Positions 155-44,075 of a stretch of DNA of 44,075 nt are shown here, piece after piece; position 1 is the stretch's first letter, and the number at the start of each line of letters is the position of its first letter. Source of the stretch: a virus; the IMG/VR virus record IMGVR_UViG_3300042554_000811, positions 1 through 44,075 of that record, one strand, 5' to 3'. Under the pieces are notes generated by a model. The model was not told the DNA's origin and made no database searches. It worked only from the letters and a program-made list of their open reading frames with translations. Both the position numbers and the translations under genes were made by a program.

Positions 155-3100
155 TTAGCGTTGAAGCTGTTGTACTAGATAACGGCGGAGAGGATCATAA
201 TTAGCGTAAGGAGTCATACTCTTACTACCTCTAGGGGCAGGAGCAAGGAAGTCAATAGAAGCAATAGTTCCATCAACTGATCGTACATTACCAGTACCAC
301 CTTGTGTACCAATAATATCACCAGCACTTAAACGTTGACCAGGTTTTACTTGAACACCATCTGCAAGGTGACCATATAGTACATCTACTTTCTGACCAGT
401 CATTGGATCAGTTGATTCAATAACCACGTAGTTACCATATCCAGATTCACGACTTACATCTTTAACTACACCGCCTAGTACGGCTGGGAATCGCTTACTT
501 TCAAAGTAAAGATCTACACCAGGCTGACCGCCAGAGGTTTCAAAGTTAACAGAAGATGGACGTTCAAAACTTGTAGCACCAAAACGTTGCATACTTTGAC
601 GCATTGTACCTCCACTCCTTAGAGCAGATACATCACCGTACTTAGCACGTGCCTTTTCAAACCGTTCATACAGGTTTTTAGCATAACCAGCTTGTGCAGT
701 ATTAGGTCTACCAGCAGCTACCCAGTTGGCATAGCCAGTTTCACCCATATTCCACACATAGACTGTATCTTTCCAGTTACCATACTTTTTGTAGATACCA
801 GACAGGATACCAGCACCAAGAGTTAGGTTAAGACGTGGATCCTTAAGTGCACGTTCACGTTCAGCACGAGTAGCACCAGGACCATGAAACTCTTGACTGA
901 GTTGCATAAGACCAACACCAGCTGCCGCACCACCCATTGACAAGGCGCTAGGGTTCCAATTACCGTTCTCAGCCTCAGCAAATGCAGCAACGAATGCAGG
1001 GTTAATACCAGCACTCTGTGCAGCTTCTACAACCAATGGACCATAACCTTTTGGAACAATGTTAGGGTCAAAGGTACGTGTAGACATCATTGCTCGTGAT
1101 GAAAGCTGCGGTGTACGGTAGGTATCCAGCATCCGCTTGAGTTGAGGATTAACCGTAGTACTGAAGCTTTGTGCAGCACCTGGAAGTTCCATGGGCTTCA
1201 GGCCAGCAGCAAGACGTTGGCGGTTAATCACAGTAAACGGATCAACACCCATCTGTGCACCAACGTATTCAGCCATGGGATCCATAGTGAATCTAGGCTT
1301 AGCCATGTCCTTTTCAAGTTCAACTAACTGAGTTTTAGAGAACACTGACCCAGGACTATCAAGAGCTTTAACGCCAAGCTTAGCAATGCTAGTTTGTACT
1401 GACTTCATACGAGCAGCAGCAACACCAGAAGGCTTAGCAGCTTGAGTAAATGCAGCATATCCACCAAGATTAGTGGCATCTTGAGAGAAGAACCTAGGAT
1501 TCTTAGCCTGAGCAGCAAACTCCTGTTGTACAAAAGACAACGCAGCATTCACTGCATTAGGGTCGCCAGCAGCCTTAAGTTCAGAGTACTTGGTTAGGAA
1601 CCTATTCTGAAGTTGTTGCGTCATTAGCGACACACTCCAGTGATAGGTACCATCAGGCTTAGCTTGAATGGTCGGAGGAGATTTGACTAGTGCAGCCAAA
1701 GCTTCCATCTGTGGTTTGAAGTTACCATTAGCAGCACGATCATCGCTGGTAGCTTTAGCCATACCACGCCACTTAGCAGCAATGGTACCAGGAATGCCCA
1801 TGTTGTTGAGACGCTCTTCAGTAAGAAGACCACGATCTGCTAGATCCTGAAGCTGAGTCTCTACCTTTTGTCTATAAAGAGCATTGGTAGACTCATTACG
1901 CCTCATGCTATCAAGACGCTGGCTATCAATACCAGGAGCTACTTCATCAAGACGTGCTTCTGCTGCATCAATATCAGCATCAGTGTAGCCATTTGGCAGT
2001 GATTCAAGAAGACCAATGATATCTTTCTCAGCCATACTACGCTGAGTCATCATCTCATTCTGCTCAAGGTTAAAGTCTTGAATAGCACGAGCCTTTGCTT
2101 GAACAAATGCACGAGTTACTTCAATAACCTGAGGATCATTCTGATTGAATTCACCGAAGGTAGTACCTTGCTCATCAATTGGTTGGTTAAGAAGATCTTG
2201 CCAAACTGCCTGAGCATCTTGCCAACCATCACCAGCAGATGCTGTTGCAAAATAACCAAGAAGATTAGCCTTTGCAGCACGACGTTGAGTACCAGAAGGT
2301 TGCGATGCAAGCCATTGAGCAGCACCTGCAGCACCTTCAGTGCTAATCTTTTGATGGATAGCACGTGTGATGTTGTTCTGTACTTCACCATCTGCAAGCT
2401 TCCTATACTCAGCATTGGATGCTTGTTGTAGCTGGTTCTCAAATGCACGCATCTGAGGATGAATATACGCTGAAGCTGCTTGCGGGCTAAGATTCAAAGC
2501 ACCTGATTCTTTCAGATACTGTGACTGAAGTTGAGATAGAATAGTTTGCTGTGCTTCCTGATCTCCAGTAGCACGTGCTTCTGCATAACTAATCTCTTGA
2601 CCTTCACGTACCTTAAATTTGGTCTCATAGTTTTGGTTAACAAAGTTACCATAACCAACACCAATGTTTTCAGCAAGTGACCGTGATTCAGACCAATACT
2701 TAGCATTGCTGTTCTTCATCAGGTAACGAATATCCTGAATGGACCCATTACCTTTATCAAGAAGACCTTTGATAAATTGGTTTTCAGCAAGTGCTTGGTC
2801 AGTAAGGTTTCGATCCAACTTGTGGATCTCCATCAAACTTTTGGTATCTAGATTACCAAGTTTAAGCATTGCCTGTTGTACACCAAGCTTAATACCTTCC
2901 TCTCGTTTCTGATTAAACTCACCAAGAGCTTTAAATGCAGTTTCAGAGAAGGAGGACAAAGCTTGAAGTGTCCTTACCTCATCTTGTCCTTGACGTTCAG
3001 CATCACGAATAGTTTGTGCATAGTTGTTCTGCACTTGCTGTTGTACAGCTTGCCGATTACGTTGATCTTGTTGGAAGATCATATCTCGGTTAGCCATCTC

Positions 3101-3280
3101 CATTTGCTGTGCATTTTGTGTAGCACGAGCATAACGGTCACGATTGCTTAGATCAAACTCCATAGCACGTTGCATAGAACGCAACGCTTGTTGACCTTGT
3201 TGGAGATACTTATTAGATTCGTCCGGCGCTTCAAGTGGCTTAAACCCGCTCGGACTTGCATAACTTTTGAATTTAGCCAT
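155..3280 (-). CDS. Internal virion protein with SLT lytic transglycosylase and degenerate M23-like domains
   Basis: The protein has 1,041 residues and occupies the position of the T7 gp15/gp16 core proteins, which leave the head at infection and help DNA cross the envelope. Residues 1-740 are helical and rich in Gln and Ala. An SLT-type fold lies at about 745-860, with the catalytic Glu in AEAENGNWNP and the GVGLMQL motif, so it can probably cut peptidoglycan glycan strands. At about 905-1020 there is an M23/LytM-like beta domain with YGHLADG and GDIIGTQGGTGN. The metal ligands HxxxD and HxH are replaced (QPGVD and SID), so this part is probably a non-catalytic wall-binding module. The ATG at 3280 is preferred to an upstream TTG. 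The gene follows the gp14-like gene at once. Confidence 0.85.
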   Translation of the reverse strand: MAKFKSYASPSGFKPLEAPDESNKYLQQGQQALRSMQRAMEFDLSNRDRYARATQNAQQMEMANRDMIFQQDQRNRQAVQQQVQNNYAQTIRDAERQGQDEVRTLQALSSFSETAFKALGEFNQKREEGIKLGVQQAMLKLGNLDTKSLMEIHKLDRNLTDQALAENQFIKGLLDKGNGSIQDIRYLMKNSNAKYWSESRSLAENIGVGYGNFVNQNYETKFKVREGQEISYAEARATGDQEAQQTILSQLQSQYLKESGALNLSPQAASAYIHPQMRAFENQLQQASNAEYRKLADGEVQNNITRAIHQKISTEGAAGAAQWLASQPSGTQRRAAKANLLGYFATASAGDGWQDAQAVWQDLLNQPIDEQGTTFGEFNQNDPQVIEVTRAFVQAKARAIQDFNLEQNEMMTQRSMAEKDIIGLLESLPNGYTDADIDAAEARLDEVAPGIDSQRLDSMRRNESTNALYRQKVETQLQDLADRGLLTEERLNNMGIPGTIAAKWRGMAKATSDDRAANGNFKPQMEALAALVKSPPTIQAKPDGTYHWSVSLMTQQLQNRFLTKYSELKAAGDPNAVNAALSFVQQEFAAQAKNPRFFSQDATNLGGYAAFTQAAKPSGVAAARMKSVQTSIAKLGVKALDSPGSVFSKTQLVELEKDMAKPRFTMDPMAEYVGAQMGVDPFTVINRQRLAAGLKPMELPGAAQSFSTTVNPQLKRMLDTYRTPQLSSRAMMSTRTFDPNIVPKGYGPLVVEAAQSAGINPAFVAAFAEAENGNWNPSALSMGGAAAGVGLMQLSQEFHGPGATRAERERALKDPRLNLTLGAGILSGIYKKYGNWKDTVYVWNMGETGYANWVAAGRPNTAQAGYAKNLYERFEKARAKYGDVSALRSGGTMRQSMQRFGATSFERPSSVNFETSGGQPGVDLYFESKRFPAVLGGVVKDVSRESGYGNYVVIESTDPMTGQKVDVLYGHLADGVQVKPGQRLSAGDIIGTQGGTGNVRSVDGTIASIDFLAPAPRGSKSMTPYANYDPLRRYLVQQLQR

Positions 3281-3282
3281 AA

Positions 3283-4386
3283 TCAAGTGAAGCTACGTGT
3301 AGCGGGATTGTAGGAATTAAGTGCAGCATTAAATGCACCTGAAGCAAATTGACCAATACCAGCTGCAACAGGACTCATACCACCAACATAACCCTTCTTA
3401 GGACGGATGCTATTCCAGAGCTTCTTATCAAACTCCATAGGATCTTGAAGTTCAGGGCGAGGCAGTGCCAACGGCTTGGGAAGACTCGGAGGAATCATTG
3501 GTTCAAGCATCATGCTAGCAATGGCATTCATATCAGCTTGTTGCTTACTGAGAGCAGCTTGATAACGCATTGCCTTACCTTGGTTAGCAAGGCTAACACG
3601 AGATGCAGCAAGTTGTGCTTTATCAAGATAGAAGCTATCGTTGATTTGTTCAAGCTTCATGTTAATGGCTTCACCAGTCAACGCATAGTTCTGCTGACCA
3701 TTCATCACATCTTGGATGATAGCAGCAGTGTTAGCACCTGCTTCAGCAATAGCAGCTTGTGCCATCTTCTCAGCAGACACACCAGCAGCACTTCTAGTTT
3801 GTGCTTGACCTAGGTTCTTCAACCCTTCAACATATGCTTTCTGTTGTTGGATCTGACCCATACCACGGGTCTGTTGTAGTACAGCTTCAGCTTGTTGCAT
3901 GTTAAGTGCTTCACCACGCTGAGCATAGCGGTACTCCATCATGGTAGACTTCTCTTCAAAGTCCATCATAATGTTCTGTTCTTGCTCCCACCGTGCAGTA
4001 TCCTGCAAGGCATAATCGTAAGCAAGGTTGTTATAGCTTAGCTGTTGTGATGCAGTCTGTTGTGACTTATTAAAGGCACGCATCTGATTGGCATAATCAA
4101 ATGCTTGGATCTGCATCTGATAACGCCAGCTTTGATCAGCACTTGCCTCTTCATAAGCCAGGTTGTTCTCAACGTTGTTACGTTGAATAGCAACCGTTTG
4201 TTTGTCGTACTTATATTGACGACGTGCTGATGTCTTGTTGAATTTCCAGTTAGCTAGATTAGCTTCATATTGAAGCTGTGCTTGACGTTCAGCAGCTTCA
4301 TTTTGTGCTGCCTGTTGAGCACCTCCAAAGATACCGCTAACAAGAGAACCACCAAGACCAATAGCTAATCCAATGGGAAATGCCAT
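3283..4386 (-). CDS. Internal virion protein (T7 gp14-like)
   Basis: The protein has 367 residues. The N-terminus has a short hydrophobic Gly-rich segment (AIGLGGSLVSGIFGG), followed by a long Gln/Ala-rich helical, probably coiled-coil body. Size, composition and place directly after tail tube B fit T7 gp14, the small internal core protein that forms the outer-membrane pore during ejection. Assignment is by position and composition, because no catalytic motif is expected. It overlaps the upstream tail gene by one base and ends three bases before the next virion gene. Confidence 0.8.
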   Translation of the reverse strand: MAFPIGLAIGLGGSLVSGIFGGAQQAAQNEAAERQAQLQYEANLANWKFNKTSARRQYKYDKQTVAIQRNNVENNLAYEEASADQSWRYQMQIQAFDYANQMRAFNKSQQTASQQLSYNNLAYDYALQDTARWEQEQNIMMDFEEKSTMMEYRYAQRGEALNMQQAEAVLQQTRGMGQIQQQKAYVEGLKNLGQAQTRSAAGVSAEKMAQAAIAEAGANTAAIIQDVMNGQQNYALTGEAINMKLEQINDSFYLDKAQLAASRVSLANQGKAMRYQAALSKQQADMNAIASMMLEPMIPPSLPKPLALPRPELQDPMEFDKKLWNSIRPKKGYVGGMSPVAAGIGQFASGAFNAALNSYNPATRSFT

Positions 4387-19564: not shown

Positions 19565-20827
19565 CTAGTGTACATCTGCCCAGGTTTGACCTACCTTAGC
19601 TTCAGCTGCAATAGGAACCCTGAGGTCATAAGTTTCTCCTGCTGTTAGAGCGGATATCAATAACGCCGATGATAATGTATCAGTATAGTCTGGTGGACAC
19701 TCGAACTGCAATTCATCATGGACGAATGCTAGTTGATGTGCATTGATCTCACATTGTTTGATTACATTATGAGTGTGAATCATCCATTGCTTTGCTATAA
19801 TACCCGCGCTCCCTTGGAGTAGGTAGTTAAGGGCTTTGTGGCTACCATCAACAGCGCAGCGGCGACCGTCACACAAACTAATGTAACCAGATTCCGCCTT
19901 GGACTTAACCGCAGTAACCAGTTTCTCAAGTCCAGGAATTGCATCCATGTATGCTTGGCGTATCTCAGCACCCTTGGCTTTGGCATCCTTGGGAGATAGC
20001 TGTGCATCGTAAGATAGTCCGATCTTTTGGTCACCGGCTCCGTACAAAAAGGCATAGGTTACTGTCTTTACTAAACGACGTGAGATTCCAATCTTGTCTG
20101 CGTTCTCTTGGTGAATGTCACCGTTGAGAAGAACGTCTCCGTACCTGCCTCCATCATATCGAGCCAGATAGTGTGCGAGCATCCTAAGCTCAATCCCTGC
20201 GAGATCAGCACCAACCATGACATAGCCAGGGCTAGCACGGAATAGCTTTCTAAATTCAAGATCACTGGGTACCTGTGCAAGGTTTGGGTTACGGTGAGCA
20301 CATCGAAATGTGTTAGTACTAACTGAACAGTTGTGGTGTATTCGATTGTTACGCACAAGCTTGAGCCAGGCATTCTTGCCTTCAGATAACATGCCAAGCT
20401 GTTTAGTTAGTTCAAGGCAACGAAAGAACTGAAGCGATTCTTCAGTACCGATGTCCTTGAGAACAACTTCATCAATGGCAGTCTTGCCACTTGCTGTCTC
20501 TTTATCTGGCTTCCACTTGTGGTGGTTCTTCATCACCCAAGCAATGTGATCACGGCTTGTAGGGTTGAACTCTTTCAGTCTAGTGAAAGTAGCTCCGGTG
20601 ATGTATCCCTGTGTTTTGTTAGGTCGCTTAGGAGTAAACTCCGGTCCAGCAACGTAAGGGTACCGCTCCCGTAGTAGCTGATTAAGGCTATCAAGCTCGG
20701 AGTAGAGAGTTTGTGCAAGTTGCCGTGCAGCAGGCTCATCAAAGTACCATCCATATAGTTCTTGTTCCGTGAGGATCTGTGCGACATCATGCTCAAGTTT
20801 TACCCAGTCTGGAAACGTGGTTTTCAT
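19565..20827 (-). CDS. DNA polymerase, family A polymerase domain (separate gene)
   Basis: The protein has 420 residues from ATG 20827 (MKTTFPDWVKLEHDVAQILT); a GTG at 20854 is possible. Motif A is VGADLAGIELRMLAHYLAR near residue 203, motif B KTVTYAFLYGAGD near 251, and motif C FVHDELQFE near 367. The end TWADVH resembles T7 gp5 (NWAICH). The 3'-5' exonuclease domain is a separate gene upstream at 21109-21624, with a small HNH gene between that overlaps both. Its N-terminus matches T7 gp5 just after the exonuclease domain, so the split falls at the domain border. It presumably works as a two-subunit enzyme. Confidence 0.93.
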   Translation of the reverse strand: MKTTFPDWVKLEHDVAQILTEQELYGWYFDEPAARQLAQTLYSELDSLNQLLRERYPYVAGPEFTPKRPNKTQGYITGATFTRLKEFNPTSRDHIAWVMKNHHKWKPDKETASGKTAIDEVVLKDIGTEESLQFFRCLELTKQLGMLSEGKNAWLKLVRNNRIHHNCSVSTNTFRCAHRNPNLAQVPSDLEFRKLFRASPGYVMVGADLAGIELRMLAHYLARYDGGRYGDVLLNGDIHQENADKIGISRRLVKTVTYAFLYGAGDQKIGLSYDAQLSPKDAKAKGAEIRQAYMDAIPGLEKLVTAVKSKAESGYISLCDGRRCAVDGSHKALNYLLQGSAGIIAKQWMIHTHNVIKQCEINAHQLAFVHDELQFECPPDYTDTLSSALLISALTAGETYDLRVPIAAEAKVGQTWADVH

Positions 20828-21145
20828 AAGTATGAACTCTGTGGCAATTTGCACATAACACTTCGCATTTAGCTATTTCATTGAGAATTTTCTCCCTACC
20901 ATAGTTATGGCTGAAAGCTTCACCAACGTTGAATAATTTGGTGGTAGGGTCTATGTGATTGAAATCTAGTGCAGCTGGATGGGTATTATACCCACATTTC
21001 GAGCAACCTTTAGATGTCTTAAGGGCGTCTACCTCTTTTTTAGGTTGCGGCTCCACTTTGTACGGCGGCAATTGAATGAACAAGTCTTTTTATTCGACCT
21101 TCCCTCCATTACCTTACCGCAAATTTCGCAATAAAATGATCCCAT
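20793..21145 (-). CDS. HNH endonuclease in two frames joined at a -1 slippery site
   Basis: The N-terminal frame (ATG 21145, stop 21029) gives 38 residues with a zinc-ribbon-like CEICGK and CSFNCRR. The -1 frame carries GCSKCGYNTHPAALDFNHID and CEVLCANCHRVHTYE, the HNH core with its Cys pairs. Slipping at 21035-21041 joins them into one 117-residue protein of ordinary family layout. The zero-frame product alone lacks the catalytic part. The gene overlaps the exonuclease gene by 37 bases and the polymerase gene by 35. No room exists for a group I intron. Alternatives are a real frameshift mutation in a decaying nuclease or a homopolymer sequencing error. Confidence 0.75.
21035..21041 (-). other. 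A_AAA_AAG slippery heptamer, candidate programmed -1 frameshift
   Basis: Minus-strand codons are CTA AAA AAG AGG TAG. The heptamer lies in the right phase for -1 slippage. A GGAG sits 9 bases upstream, and the zero-frame TAG follows two codons later. The E. coli dnaX site has the same heptamer, an upstream Shine-Dalgarno-like element and an early stop. The only downstream stem I see (CCTT/AAGG) is weak. Confidence 0.55.
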
Positions 21146-21624
21146 AATTTGACTGTGACATGTACATCTTGTAAGCAGTAGTCTTGCATCTCCTGACTCC
21201 ACTCCTTCCAATCAGCTGTCTTACCGAAAGCGCCTTTGTATTCACCCAATCGGTAACCATACGCTTCAAGGGAGTGGCGACCATAGAGCTGCAGTGGCAT
21301 CTGTTTCCACTTGCGTCTTTGATCAGTCTTCAAGATGTCAGCATGACAAATGCGACTGAGCACCAAAGTATCAAGAACCCTACCTCTGGGCTCAAACCAA
21401 GCATAGAGCTTACGAATAACGGGAAGATCATAATTGACAATATTATGGCCGACAATTTGATCTGCGTCTTCAAGTCTTTGTAAGCCCCGCGTGAGCGGTT
21501 CCGTGTCACCTTGGTCATTGTAGACAAGTGTTTGATTGGTCTCTGTATCATAAATGCCAAGGCAGTGGATGTTGGTAACATCATACAAAAGACCGTTTGT
21601 TTCTAAGTCAAAGATAAGCGTCAT
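21109..21624 (-). CDS. DNA polymerase 3'-5' proofreading exonuclease domain (separate gene)
   Basis: The protein has 171 residues. Exo I is FDLETNGLL at the start, Exo II GHNIVNYDLPVI near residue 60, and Exo III MQDYCLQDVHVTVKLWDHF near 150. LDTLVLSRICHADILK and HSLEAYGYRLGEYKGAF match the T7 gp5 exonuclease domain. The frame ends FAVR-stop exactly where T7 gp5 continues into the polymerase part. The polymerase domain lies beyond the HNH gene. The metal-binding acids are complete, so proofreading should work if the two chains associate. Confidence 0.92.
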   Translation of the reverse strand: MTLIFDLETNGLLYDVTNIHCLGIYDTETNQTLVYNDQGDTEPLTRGLQRLEDADQIVGHNIVNYDLPVIRKLYAWFEPRGRVLDTLVLSRICHADILKTDQRRKWKQMPLQLYGRHSLEAYGYRLGEYKGAFGKTADWKEWSQEMQDYCLQDVHVTVKLWDHFIAKFAVR

Positions 21625-21721
21625 TCCAGTGACGTATTACTCCAGCAACAATAAATAGGTTTGTGATGAAGATCATCAACTCAAGTAGGTTGAGCCTTCG
21701 GAGCAGCCCCTTTCCAGACAT
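21608..21721 (-). CDS. Small membrane peptide overlapping the exonuclease start
   Basis: The protein has 37 residues: MSGKGLLRRLNLLELMIFIT followed by NLFIVAGVIRHWNDAYL. There is a positive N-terminus and one membrane helix. It overlaps the 43-residue gene upstream by 41 bases and the exonuclease gene by 17, with no clear ribosome site. It is plausible but not certain. Confidence 0.4.
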   Translation of the reverse strand: MSGKGLLRRLNLLELMIFITNLFIVAGVIRHWNDAYL

Positions 21722-31398: not shown

Positions 31399-31418
31399 TC
31401 AGTACTCACAGGATTCAG
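31399..31418. repeat. 20-base direct repeat, copy B
   Basis: TCAGTACTCACAGGATTCAG is the second copy, matching 18 of 20 positions. The spacing of 34 bases puts both copies at roughly the same helix face. Confidence 0.6.
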
Positions 31419-31490
31419 TCAGTAGAGTAGATGAATGAACTAAGAGGGAGATGTTTGTCTTTTGTTCCCTCACTGTTCATTAAAGAAAGA

Positions 31491-31526
31491 GAGGAAGATG
31501 TGTCTTGATAAAGACATGTCTTCCTC
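31491..31526 (-). terminator. Long hairpin after the terminase gene
   Basis: Two 16-base arms pair around a GATA/TATC loop: 8 plus 6 pairs with a 2-base internal position that is G-U on the plus strand and mismatched on the minus strand. On the minus strand TCTTTCTTTA follows. It may be a terminator or an RNase III-type processing site. Apart from this and the 31365/31418 repeats, the gap 31349-31576 holds no gene. Confidence 0.6.
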
Positions 31527-31576
31527 CTTCAGGAGTCGGGTCCACCCTTCCCTTCTCCTGTATACATCAGGGACCG

Positions 31577-33310
31577 CTAAGAAACCCAGGTAGGGACTAC
31601 CTTTTTACCAGCTAGTTGTCTTGCTTGTCTACGTTGGTCTAAATTAAAACCAAATGCCATATGAGAGGCAGCTGCTTGGGGGTCATCTAACCAAGATTCT
31701 TGCATATCAAGCCAGTCTTCTTGTTTACGTGTCTTAATAGCTTCATAAGCAGAAATAGCGAGTACATCTGTGAAGTATTTAACACCTTGTGCTAGTGAGT
31801 CCAGTCTATCATCGTGTCTTACTGCACCTTTTTCCCGACACATCCTTGACATCTGATAGAATAGCATGTAGAGGAGTCTAGTTTCGGGTGCGGCTTCCTT
31901 ATTCGAGTTGAAGTCCCATTCCACCACAGACCGATTAACAATAAGCTTATGTTGATTAAGAACAGGCTCAAGGGTATCAATGATTCGGTCTTCTTTACGA
32001 ACATTAGCACGTACCTCTTCGATGTCGATTGCTTGTTTGGTTTGTTGAAGGTGTTTCTTAAAGAGTTCACCGACAATACCATCACCAAAGTTTGTCTCAA
32101 TTAGAAGTTTAGTAACACCGTACTTCTTACAACCTCTAAGGATGTCTAGTAAGGTAGCGTCGCTATAACCATCTTGATAAGCACGTATTTCATGAAGGTA
32201 GATGAAACCATTACGTTGGCTAAGGAAGGAAGCTGCTGTTTCATCGGTTCCTCGTCCAGAAGGGTCTACGGAGCAGATAGTTTCTGTGTACGGTAGCCAC
32301 TCACCTTGCATAACCATTGGTGAATAGAAATAGTCTCCAGGTAGACCAACAGTTGGTAGGTCTTTAATAACATTACTGGGATCTGAACACCACACTACAG
32401 CATCAGGACATTCCTTAGGATTAACTGCTGTAACGATAAGGTCTGCCATCTTAAGTGGGAACTTCTCAGCATCACTAAGACTGGTGTCTAGCATGAACTG
32501 TAGCATAAAGTTGCTACGACCCATAGATGCTTCACGTTCTACTAGGTCTTCAGAAGAGAAACGATCGGGGTCTGTTACATCCCAAGGTTCAATACCACCT
32601 TCAATGTCTTCTTGTACTTGAGGTGCAAGGAGTCCTTCGTAGTTAGATAGTTTACGAGGGTAACGTGCTGGCCAAACGAATGGTTTATAGTTACGTTCTG
32701 CTAGCTTACGGTAGATAGTAAAGGTAGTCTGTGGTGTACCTAGGTACATGATACGACTATCTTTCTTTGGTGTTAAGATAGACTCAGCTTCCGTACACAA
32801 CTGTAGAAGCTTTTCACGCATCATCTCGGTCATGCTGTTGCCAGGAACCTCAATGTCGTCTAGAATCATGAGGTCTGCACGGCTACCAGTAAGTTGACCT
32901 GTGATACCCACACTCTTAACGGATGGTGCTTGGTGAGGGCTACATAAAACATCAAAGCTAATCCGTGACCACCGGGCATCATCACTCTTTGGTCTCAAAT
33001 GTGATAGCCAGGGTGTCTCAATGATTAGCTTCTGAAGGAAGATCGACATGTTATCTGCCCGCTCTTTGGAAGCGGAGATGATCATGATCTTCTTTTCGGG
33101 GTTGTTGAACAATGTCCACAACACGAAAGCACCGGTAATCCAGCTCTTACCGACTCCTCGGAAGGCTTGGATCTGTAGACGTTTAGGACCGTGTTGTAGG
33201 TAGTCAGCAATGGCGTATTGTGCACGTGTTGGTGATGGTAGGTCTAGTTGAGACCACAGCGCTTGAAGAAAGAGTTTAAAATCACCCTTGAGGGCTGTTA
33301 AAGTATCCAT
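31577..33310 (-). CDS. terL: Terminase large subunit (T7 gp19-like DNA maturase B)
   Basis: The protein has 577 residues. The ATPase has Walker A QAFRGVGKSW near residue 50 and Walker B ADLMILDDIEVPG near 145. The nuclease has ICSVDPSGRGTDETA near 345 and RHDDRLDSLAQG near 497. It packages concatemeric DNA through the portal and cuts it. Size and motif order match gp19. It is preceded by a strong hairpin at 33335-33371. Confidence 0.95.
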   Translation of the reverse strand: MDTLTALKGDFKLFLQALWSQLDLPSPTRAQYAIADYLQHGPKRLQIQAFRGVGKSWITGAFVLWTLFNNPEKKIMIISASKERADNMSIFLQKLIIETPWLSHLRPKSDDARWSRISFDVLCSPHQAPSVKSVGITGQLTGSRADLMILDDIEVPGNSMTEMMREKLLQLCTEAESILTPKKDSRIMYLGTPQTTFTIYRKLAERNYKPFVWPARYPRKLSNYEGLLAPQVQEDIEGGIEPWDVTDPDRFSSEDLVEREASMGRSNFMLQFMLDTSLSDAEKFPLKMADLIVTAVNPKECPDAVVWCSDPSNVIKDLPTVGLPGDYFYSPMVMQGEWLPYTETICSVDPSGRGTDETAASFLSQRNGFIYLHEIRAYQDGYSDATLLDILRGCKKYGVTKLLIETNFGDGIVGELFKKHLQQTKQAIDIEEVRANVRKEDRIIDTLEPVLNQHKLIVNRSVVEWDFNSNKEAAPETRLLYMLFYQMSRMCREKGAVRHDDRLDSLAQGVKYFTDVLAISAYEAIKTRKQEDWLDMQESWLDDPQAAASHMAFGFNLDQRRQARQLAGKKVVPTWVS

Positions 33311-34295: not shown

Positions 34296-34622
34296 CTATT
34301 GTATATGTTGTAAAATAAGATGTTCTCTAGGTGTTATCCCAAAGGTATTACGCATCCACGTAAGCCAGTTGCTACTACCTTTTGCCTGATTACATTCCCA
34401 ACATGAGGGTACAAGATTTGATGTAAGGTCTTGCCCTCCAAGACAACGAGGGCGAACGTGATCAAGAGTAAGTTCATGTAATTCATAGTGATTCCCACAG
34501 TAGACACATTGACAGTTGAAGTGTTCCTTAATGGCACGCCTCCAAAGGCGTTTTGCTTCGGGACTTGTCATCGTTATTAGGTTGTGGAGGTAATGATCAG
34601 GCGAGGGCAGTAAAAGTGTCAT
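34296..34622 (-). CDS. HNH endonuclease
   Basis: The protein has 108 residues from an ATG that overlaps the upstream stop (ATGA); a second ATG is 17 codons in. The HNH core is complete: CQCVYCGNHYELHELTLDHV with Cys pair and His, then NLVPSCWECNQAKGS with Asn and the second Cys pair. Free-standing HNH enzymes beside terminase genes often help packaging cuts in other phages. A homing role is also possible. Confidence 0.87.
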   Translation of the reverse strand: MTLLLPSPDHYLHNLITMTSPEAKRLWRRAIKEHFNCQCVYCGNHYELHELTLDHVRPRCLGGQDLTSNLVPSCWECNQAKGSSNWLTWMRNTFGITPREHLILQHIQ

Positions 34623-34864: not shown

Positions 34865-35099
34865 ACAGTCTCCGTTGTACAAGTTCGGGGTCTATTTGGG
34901 GCAGTACACTCGCTAATTTATCCAGTGGTGAGCCTTCAATAGCTACACCACTAATATCATTCTTGGCTAGCCAATCTGTGCAGGCTTTTAAGTCTGCGGT
35001 AGTAGCTTCACCACTTTTAATTCGACGAAGAAATTCTTCAGTAACAAGGTTGTGTAGTTGGTTGAAAGCGTCTTCATTCGCTTTTTGATGTTTTGCCAC
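34845..35099 (-). CDS. terS: Terminase small subunit (T7 gp18-like)
   Basis: The protein has 84 residues with a GTG start at 35099. LHNLVTEEFLRRIKSGEATT followed by ADLKACTDWLAKNDISGVAI is the compact gp18-type pattern, and VQRRLYGKSYV closes it. It recognises phage DNA for packaging with the large subunit, from which it is separated here by three genes, two of them nuclease-like. It overlaps the endonuclease VII-like gene by 26 bases. Confidence 0.85.
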   Translation of the reverse strand: MAKHQKANEDAFNQLHNLVTEEFLRRIKSGEATTADLKACTDWLAKNDISGVAIEGSPLDKLASVLPQIDPELVQRRLYGKSYV

Positions 35100-35484
35100 G
35101 GCTTAAATAATGAATAAGGTTTGCAAGGGTTCCGATGTTATCATCCACAAGACCTAGGGCAGCATTGCATCTGCCACATAAAAGTCCACGAACTTGACCA
35201 GTTTCGTGACAATGGTCTATGTGGAACCGAGAGCCCTCATTGCTACGCTGACACCCAAGACATAACCCATTCTGTTCCCTATACATCGCGTCATAATCAT
35301 CTACTGTAATGCCATAGTTGCGTTTAATTTGACGCTCGTATGCTCTTTGTTTTTGTTCAGCAGTAGGTGGATACTTAGTCTTTTTGCAGGGTTTACAAAT
35401 AGCAGCGTGCCCGTCTCGATGACCTCTATGTTTGGGAAACTCAGTTAATGGTTTAGATTGGTGACAGTACTTACATTGTTTCAT
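35074..35484 (-). CDS. Endonuclease VII-like (His-Me/HNH) nuclease
   Basis: The protein has 136 residues. An N-terminal zinc ribbon (CKYCHQSKPLTEFPKH, CKPCKK) and GITVDDYDAMYREQNGLCLG lead to the core RFHIDHCHETGQVRGLLCGR, the signature of recombination endonuclease VII. The T4 enzyme clears branched DNA before packaging. A position right before the terminase fits that use, although endonuclease I is also present. Many such genes are mobile, so homing is an alternative. Confidence 0.92.
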   Translation of the reverse strand: MKQCKYCHQSKPLTEFPKHRGHRDGHAAICKPCKKTKYPPTAEQKQRAYERQIKRNYGITVDDYDAMYREQNGLCLGCQRSNEGSRFHIDHCHETGQVRGLLCGRCNAALGLVDDNIGTLANLIHYLSRGKTSKSE

Positions 35485-43100: not shown

Positions 43101-44075
43101 GATTCTTCATAACCATAAAGGTCATGAACACCAAGCATTGGTTGATCAAGATCAGCATTCTTTGAGAAGTTGTATTCACCAAGCTCATCTAAAGCGTCTG
43201 AGCGGCGTGCAGCAGACTCTGCAATAGCCTCCTCAATGTCATCTGATACTTCGGTACCTAAGTTCTTCGAGAACCACTGTGTAGCCTTTTCTGACTCGGG
43301 TACCCATTGAGTAGCACGATTAACACCACGGATGCCTTTAACAATCTTACCAACACCTTCAGCAAAGTCTACAAAAAGACCAAGACCAGCACCTTCAGTA
43401 ACGTTCTTAGCACGTTTAATGTCAGGACTGTCACTATCAAGTGTTGCAATGTTGTCAGGAATCCAACCAAATTGTGCAGGAAATGCTTTCTTTAGTGTAC
43501 CGCTAAGGTTGTCATCTGTCTGGTTAAACTCAACAGCATAATCAACACCAGCACCTACACCAGCACCAAGCATCTTAGGTGCTACCCATTTGAGGAATGG
43601 ATCATTAAACATCTTAACACGACTAGCACTAGCAGCAGTTTGAAGACCGCTACCAATACCTTTGGTAAGGAAGATAGTAGGAAGTACAACACTACTAAAT
43701 TCACGAAGACCTTGTGTTACATCATTTTCAAACTTAGGTGCTTTCCTAAGTTCAACACCAGGAAGCATATTGATGGTATCAACAAACCAGTCATTGATAC
43801 CACGACCAGGAGCAGAAAGAACATCAAACGTTTGTTGAAGAATGTTCTTATCACCTTTCGGTTGTTGTTGTTGTTGCCCTTGACCCGTAGGTTGAGCAGG
43901 TTGTTGCTGAGATCTCTGAGGCTGTTGAGCAGCAGCTTCTTGTTGAAACATTTGTTGCTGAGCCATGCTTTCCATGATCTGCATGTCTTGGGCAGATTGC
44001 TCAGCTTGTAAACGCATCTGCTGCTCTTCTTCAGCCGTCATGTCTGGCGTACCAAACAAGATCCCTTGCGTAAGA
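40181..44075 (-). CDS. Giant internal virion protein (T7 gp16-position), continues at base 138
   Basis: This piece is the main part of a protein of about 1,301 residues whose first codons lie at bases 138-128. The N-terminal 80 residues are Gln-rich (QQEAAAQQPQRSQQQPAQPT). A hydrophobic Gly/Ala segment (VLPTIFLTKGIGSGLQTAAS) lies near residue 115, and long helical regions follow with AIERAEEQILDRLEFLMAQK and a charged end FLDDMKQTMSY. No lytic domain is visible; that activity lies in the preceding virion gene. Place and size fit the ejected T7 gp16 core protein. The division of domains between the two proteins differs from T7. Confidence 0.85.
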   Translation of the reverse strand, partial: LTQGILFGTPDMTAEEEQQMRLQAEQSAQDMQIMESMAQQQMFQQEAAAQQPQRSQQQPAQPTGQGQQQQQPKGDKNILQQTFDVLSAPGRGINDWFVDTINMLPGVELRKAPKFENDVTQGLREFSSVVLPTIFLTKGIGSGLQTAASASRVKMFNDPFLKWVAPKMLGAGVGAGVDYAVEFNQTDDNLSGTLKKAFPAQFGWIPDNIATLDSDSPDIKRAKNVTEGAGLGLFVDFAEGVGKIVKGIRGVNRATQWVPESEKATQWFSKNLGTEVSDDIEEAIAESAARRSDALDELGEYNFSKNADLDQPMLGVHDLYGYEESGVRSVDNLGIVGAAVDVARIVNNADSVYGRVGSVISESALKFGLEVPEGQDAIIRGLAQQLQDAGEYGYRTASGKYLSHKEIMQAGEDLAFDFYRMDTPELQQAIKKWQGIDVDTGAPVLKSEAYAAVFKTINKLMDDFANMDVMRAQAYVGTSFAGQVSDMAQGVRLMDGTAAIERAEEQILDRLEFLMAQKGMTSYSRGRALNMLNLWNRLTTKGSEAADAGYATKINNAIKNEENATLQAIERIKADSKQTINTLREIKAERPEMLAPLMMAYEFTDGKVDTISKLNNYVRNSLGVMSKAFFDGEPEIPSAVMRGFWSNVYNSTLSAIGTPIKAGVSNIALLAERPIAQAAGAVINGDGKVVRRGWYQYSAAWDTLTNSLGYMNQVFRRSASDPYVLALREDSGVADQQQIELLKQFADAKAATGEYGPQVMISIVEAQNDLAQHPWLRFGQRGMQAFDGFTQAVIANWEARGKAWDTVTQGGLIPLDKKASDKLSKEVYSAMFDDNDNITDNAVRYASGEISMALDNPANDALSNLIRTAPILKPFLLFTKTPLNMATYFGSHNPVGMFIDKINAFDKEFFEMSGQEVEQLLSSRGIDYTMENIESVYTTTRAELKGRKAIGTLAVMSAVGLFMSDNLTGDGLYDKEKQRLRRDANWQPRSIRVPGGKWVSYDGIPGVSDWVALTANIMDNFDSLNAAELAENLRAAGFVISATITDKSMLAALEPLNDVVRGDVGAINRWTSSFASSASMPGSSLMAEFGRLITPNKKELENNFFDLVANRNPILKQALPDAHDWIDGGKVGEPPNFFARVWNNYLPWKVSGEVSPEKQFLMDIEYDARPTLKTNGRGVEYSNEERSEVTSTMGKQQIFKREIQRIMQTQEGKEFRNEFKKARDLGLAPDVEKFKNIHLYLDAALRSSMRFAEAQVSTRDGIRNKVYQNQTVENFLQVGDIDGAKKFLDDMKQTMSY
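43949..44075. repeat. Terminal direct repeat, right copy (assembly overlap)
   Basis: This is the second copy of the 127-base sequence that opens the window. Joining the copies restores one open reading frame, whose start codon lies at base 138 and whose stop lies at 40181. Confidence 0.9.

Follow-up and report, generated by a model that had tools for sequence, protein, structure and literature searches.

A small HNH gene between two DNA polymerase halves

The window, by which we mean the whole 44,075-base virus contig analysed here, carries on its minus strand a family A DNA polymerase in two halves with a small HNH endonuclease gene between them. The exonuclease half (exo; 21109..21624, 171 amino acids) matches PHROG 403 ('DNA polymerase exonuclease subunit', 7.5e-25) and PHROG 17 (DNA polymerase, 1.7e-33), and its residues 1–164 are 81% identical to those of Synechococcus phage S-CBP4. 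The polymerase half (pol; 19565..20827) has 420 amino acids when read from the ATG at 20827-20825; it matches Pfam DNA_pol_A at 6.3e-41 (as a 429-amino acid ORF) and PHROG 15971 at 2.1e-132, and from residue 3 onward it is 82% identical to S-CBP4. The intervening HNH gene lies in two adjacent frames: its N-terminal part is in ORF A (21145-21029, 38 amino acids) and its nuclease core in ORF B, which runs from a first possible start, TTG at 21083, to a stop at 20793 (20793..21083) and matches PHROG 3106 at 2.7e-28. The original prediction, which concerned the frames of this gene, had missed its position between the polymerase halves.

In the replication region the DNA of the window is about 80% identical to that of S-CBP4 and 75–76% identical to S-CBP3, S-CBP1 and DSL-LC07, all of which are Autographiviridae; the window is a Synechococcus-type podovirus. 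Its first and last 127 bases (1-127 and 43949-44075) form an exact direct repeat. The record is classed as linear, and the repeat is probably the assembly overlap of a circular contig; an exact 127-base end repeat is typical of short-read graph assembly at k=127, and the window would be a circularly assembled contig from such a graph. Judged against the proteins of S-CBP4 and DSL-LC07, its conserved genes are nearly all whole, so the record is not generally full of frame errors. For the large terminase of S-CBP4, the C-terminal end matches a different frame of the window (31417-31587), and the DSL-LC07 terminase ends at the same place as that of the window. A second HNH endonuclease gene (34296-34622), intact and in one frame, is common to S-CBP4 and DSL-LC07. 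An endonuclease VII-like gene (35074-35484, PHROG 2633) has kin elsewhere in both phages, and since its position differs among them it is likely a mobile gene.

The polymerase is bipartite in relatives that lack the HNH gene

Related loci gave 121 distinct junction sequences, and in 118 of these exo and pol abut without an HNH gene; the remaining three have an HNH gene at the identical point, each in one frame. At the junctions of relatives pol invariably lies in the -1 frame of exo, as an overlapping ORF, and a search with a simple pattern found an out-of-frame ATG (76) or TTG (45) within the conserved exo codons Lys-Leu-Trp/Cys at all 121. Since exo and pol are already two ORFs where no HNH gene is present, the split is older than the HNH gene and was not caused by it. 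Nor is the split itself new, as exo and pol have separate gene annotations in the GenBank records of DSL-LC07 and 7B11-B and the PHROGs include a 'DNA polymerase exonuclease subunit' family; in the papers on S-CBP-type phages that we examined, a split polymerase is not mentioned. Programmed frameshifting from exo into pol in the relatives was considered and rejected: exo contains a start for pol at each junction that we looked at and heptamers there are not conserved, which makes separate initiation the preferred reading. Three loci (L323, L072 and L321) do have A_AAA_AAG or A_AAA_AAA in phase immediately ahead of the pol start, where a -1 slip would fuse exo to pol; these heptamers are not conserved in the clade and appear to be there by chance.

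The insertion and its site

The stretch that separates residue 164 of exo from residue 5 of pol measures 317 bases in the window and 5 in most relatives, and comparison with uninterrupted junctions places about 312 bases of inserted DNA at 20821..21132 on the minus strand, with ends uncertain by some bases. The exo stop and last few codons fall within it. The ATG of the HNH gene (21145-21143) is homologous to the pol start codon of insert-free relatives, the contexts being TTATGG in the window, TTATGC in 7B11-B and CTTTGG in S-CBP4, and the new pol ATG sits inside the HNH codons T-Y-E-N at the 3' end of that gene. One locus (L023) has no insert at the junction although its pol is 93% identical to that of the window.

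The relatives with an HNH gene at this site (L069, whose junction recurs unchanged in L104, L292 and L378) all have it starting at the same ATG and running in one frame, free of the heptamer described below, to a stop of its own within pol. The cores of these genes are 53–63% identical to that of the window; their N-termini have no zinc ribbon, and because of this difference none is an exact orthologue of the HNH gene in the window. An intact one-frame orthologue with a zinc ribbon was not found at the exo/pol site.

The last 60 nucleotides of exo are 67–68% identical to the closest kin, against 82–85% just upstream; they are nearest to the HNH-bearing L069 (83%), yet several empty junctions reach 82%. 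This pattern is compatible with import of the HNH gene along with its flank, of which it is only suggestive. Among the window, L069 and L292 the HNH DNA is 65–72% identical and the flanks 67–77%. Since the HNH DNA is no more alike than its surroundings, no recent spread of the gene is shown, and the idea of a recent transfer was dropped. The search for RNA elements at the junction, group I introns included, gave none: there is no Rfam match in 20500-21700, and the exo, HNH and pol ORFs overlap, which leaves no room for an intron. The stop in frame A and the separate ORFs of exo and pol led us to reject an intein.

Anatomy of the frame break

ORF A translates as MGSFYCEICGKVMEGRSNKKTCSFNCRRTKWSRNLKKR and ends in a TAG stop at 21031-21029. 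Frame B is open from 21089, its preceding stop being at 21092-21090, so that ORF A and frame B overlap by about 19 codons. The two frames part, in the -1 direction, at the A6 run of an A_AAA_AAG heptamer (21041-21035, minus strand) that is in phase for ORF A (CTA AAA AAG AGG TAG), and a GGAG of Shine-Dalgarno type lies 9 nucleotides upstream (21054-21051, minus strand); as a 4-mer, the latter is by itself a weak stimulator element. Homology of ORF B to other HNH proteins starts at the heptamer codons, the profile match beginning KKEVDALK, and the core has lost none of the conserved Cys, His and Asn residues (the invariant alignment columns, including the zinc-binding Cys pairs and the catalytic His and Asn). 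The point of transition between frames is not pinned by the profile score, which is flat at 99–103 bits over all places. No sequence relative was found in the PDB.

The N-terminal part contains a C-x2-C-x12-C-x3-C motif found at no other place in the window when all six frames are translated, and a Cys motif of this type arises in 0.13% of composition shuffles of ORF A. ORF A scores 5.9 bits against a profile of nine zinc-ribbon HNH relatives, less than the 7.6 bits reached by the best among 300 shuffles; because the profile does not separate ORF A from its shuffles, the assignment is carried by the Cys motif, on which we regard ORF A as a genuine zinc-ribbon N-terminus. The first half of the original prediction is thereby borne out: translation, the Cys motif and the PHROG 3106 match confirm that a zinc ribbon and an HNH core lie in adjacent frames, and the join at A_AAA_AAG, its phase and -1 direction, the GGAG 9 nucleotides upstream and the stop soon after are all present in the sequence.

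Is the frame break programmed?

The original prediction went on to propose that ribosomes slip at A_AAA_AAG, stimulated by the GGAG, and so make a dose-limited 117-residue nuclease together with a 38-residue zinc peptide. The heptamer, its phase, the direction of the join and the spacing of the GGAG all fit this proposal, as do the intact HNH core and the genuine zinc-ribbon N-terminus of ORF A. Among bacterial -1 slip sites, A_AAA_AAG is the strongest. Across 12,233 codons of the other genes in the window no in-phase A_AAA_AAG was found, and any in-phase X_XXY_YYZ heptamer would fall within the 19-codon overlap by chance with a probability of about 0.023. The fitter background for such a chance, however, is the lysine-rich linkers of HNH homologues rather than the other genes of the window. 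The comparison covered 108 distinct HNH homologues, drawn from IMG/VR and from GTDB genomes. These intact one-frame homologues hold nine in-phase A_AAA_AAR heptamers within the 45 codons before the core, so that A_AAA_AAG belongs to the background of a lysine-rich linker.

Other comparisons also weigh against a programmed site. In none of the 108 homologues is a zinc ribbon in a frame other than that of the core; where a ribbon is present, it is in the core frame. No stable hairpin lies downstream of the heptamer, the 65-nucleotide fold having a z of -0.25 against shuffles. Conservation of the heptamer and of both frames in homologues, to which the original prediction had looked for support, was not seen. 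It had also held that relatives with the same gene in one frame and no heptamer would point to error or decay; the comparisons largely point that way, though only in part, because the same-site genes of L069, L292 and L378, in one frame and free of the heptamer, have a different N-terminus that lacks the zinc ribbon. One further locus (L224, near 3001-3312) holds an HNH homologue with an in-frame stop just ahead of the core, and in another (L288) the homologue is split in mid-core.

Bacterial genes such as dnaX are known to use A-rich heptamers for programmed -1 frameshifting. To tell such a site from an indel, the published criteria require that clustered homologues conserve it; a frame break that stands alone is regarded as most probably an indel or error, and replication, too, tends to produce indels in poly-A stretches (PMC3711429). 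The frame-broken HNH copy in the window is a singleton; with the length of the A run left free, a search of those IMG/VR records open to it found neither a second copy of this version nor a near-identical one with another run length. Given the one-frame HNH genes at the same site, the lack of any homologue split in this way, the missing hairpin and the commonness of the heptamer in linkers, programmed frameshifting is unsupported and we consider it unlikely. We think it slightly less probable still that a homing-type HNH gene between the polymerase halves keeps its nuclease dose low through a dnaX-like -1 slip site.

A further reading, to which we give the same low probability as to programmed frameshifting, needs no frameshift: the HNH core alone would be a functional nuclease, translated from an internal start (TTG 21083 or GTG 21056) coupled to ORF A. 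Both codons are present in frame B ahead of the core, the same-site relatives manage without a zinc ribbon, and this locus is generally one of overlapping ORFs that start out of frame, with pol beginning at TTG in many relatives. The GTG, on the other hand, has no Shine-Dalgarno sequence at the usual spacing, the TTG is preceded by a G-rich stretch only at about 14–19 nucleotides, and the resulting N-terminal peptide, FIQLPPYKVEPQP, matches no homologue. Least probable, and very doubtful, is that the gene is truly in one frame and its A run was misread in sequencing or assembly: the break does fall at one of only nine A6/T6 runs in the record and one-frame relatives do exist, but the 127-base end repeat points to a short-read assembly, six-A runs are rarely miscounted by short reads, and the other conserved genes are nearly all unbroken.

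Discussion

The explanation that we favor, and hold to be probable, is that the exo/pol junction holds a homing-type HNH gene which has suffered a private, non-programmed -1 break at its A6 run. What we observe directly is that the gene is inserted and precisely where, that its start codon is the one pol uses in relatives, that relatives carry one-frame HNH genes at this site and that its own frame is broken. We infer that a non-essential mobile gene has here acquired a commonplace indel-type lesion, as opposed to a recoding signal under selection. Against this stand the strong in-phase slip site, unique in phase within the window, the -1 direction of the join, the GGAG and an HNH core that keeps every conserved residue; nor did we find an exact orthologue with an intact one-frame zinc-ribbon gene at the site.

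By the favored account, a free-standing homing-type HNH gene has inserted between the exo and pol genes of an already bipartite cyanophage polymerase, with the empty exo/pol junction as its probable target. It has taken over the start codon of pol and supplies pol with a new ATG in its own 3' end. The -1 break between zinc ribbon and HNH core is private to this phage, and the phage tolerates the broken gene because exo and pol each keep a start of their own. Since the core keeps all its conserved residues, any decay would be recent. Leaky slippage would be expected at A_AAA_AAG, which is intrinsically slippery, and a small share of full-length nuclease may therefore still arise, without selection for it and without the phage depending on it.

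The gene is a further free-standing HNH endonuclease, ordinary in kind. The free-standing phage HNH homing endonucleases (PHROG 3106 / 2255) share with it the HNH core and an optional zinc ribbon and occur in many phages, and like them it is an insertion missing from relatives (118 of the 121 junctions are empty); it is unlike them in lying exactly between exo and pol, in sharing the pol start codon and in being frame-broken. In cyanophage Pf-WMP3 the HNH endonuclease I-PfoP3I is encoded in a group I intron of the DNA polymerase gene (PMC3428280). Both are HNH endonucleases at a cyanophage DNA polymerase gene; unlike I-PfoP3I, that of the window has no intron by Rfam, and the flanking ORFs overlap it. 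The T4 topoisomerase genes 39/60, which owe their split to a homing endonuclease and are decoded with a ribosomal bypass of 50 nucleotides (PMC5009743), offer another instance of a homing endonuclease gene between the halves of a replication protein and beside unusual decoding, whereas here exo and pol are two ORFs even in relatives that have no HNH gene. With E. coli dnaX the window shares A_AAA_AAG, an upstream Shine-Dalgarno-like element and an early stop, but its site has neither a notable downstream hairpin nor conservation.

A_AAA_AAG is ordinary in lysine-rich HNH linkers, so one located where a frame breaks lends programmed frameshifting little weight; were such frameshifting demonstrated at this site, homing genes would gain a new form of dose control. 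As the locus illustrates, an essential pair of replication genes can take in a small endonuclease gene harmlessly when the newcomer borrows the downstream start codon and supplies a new one.
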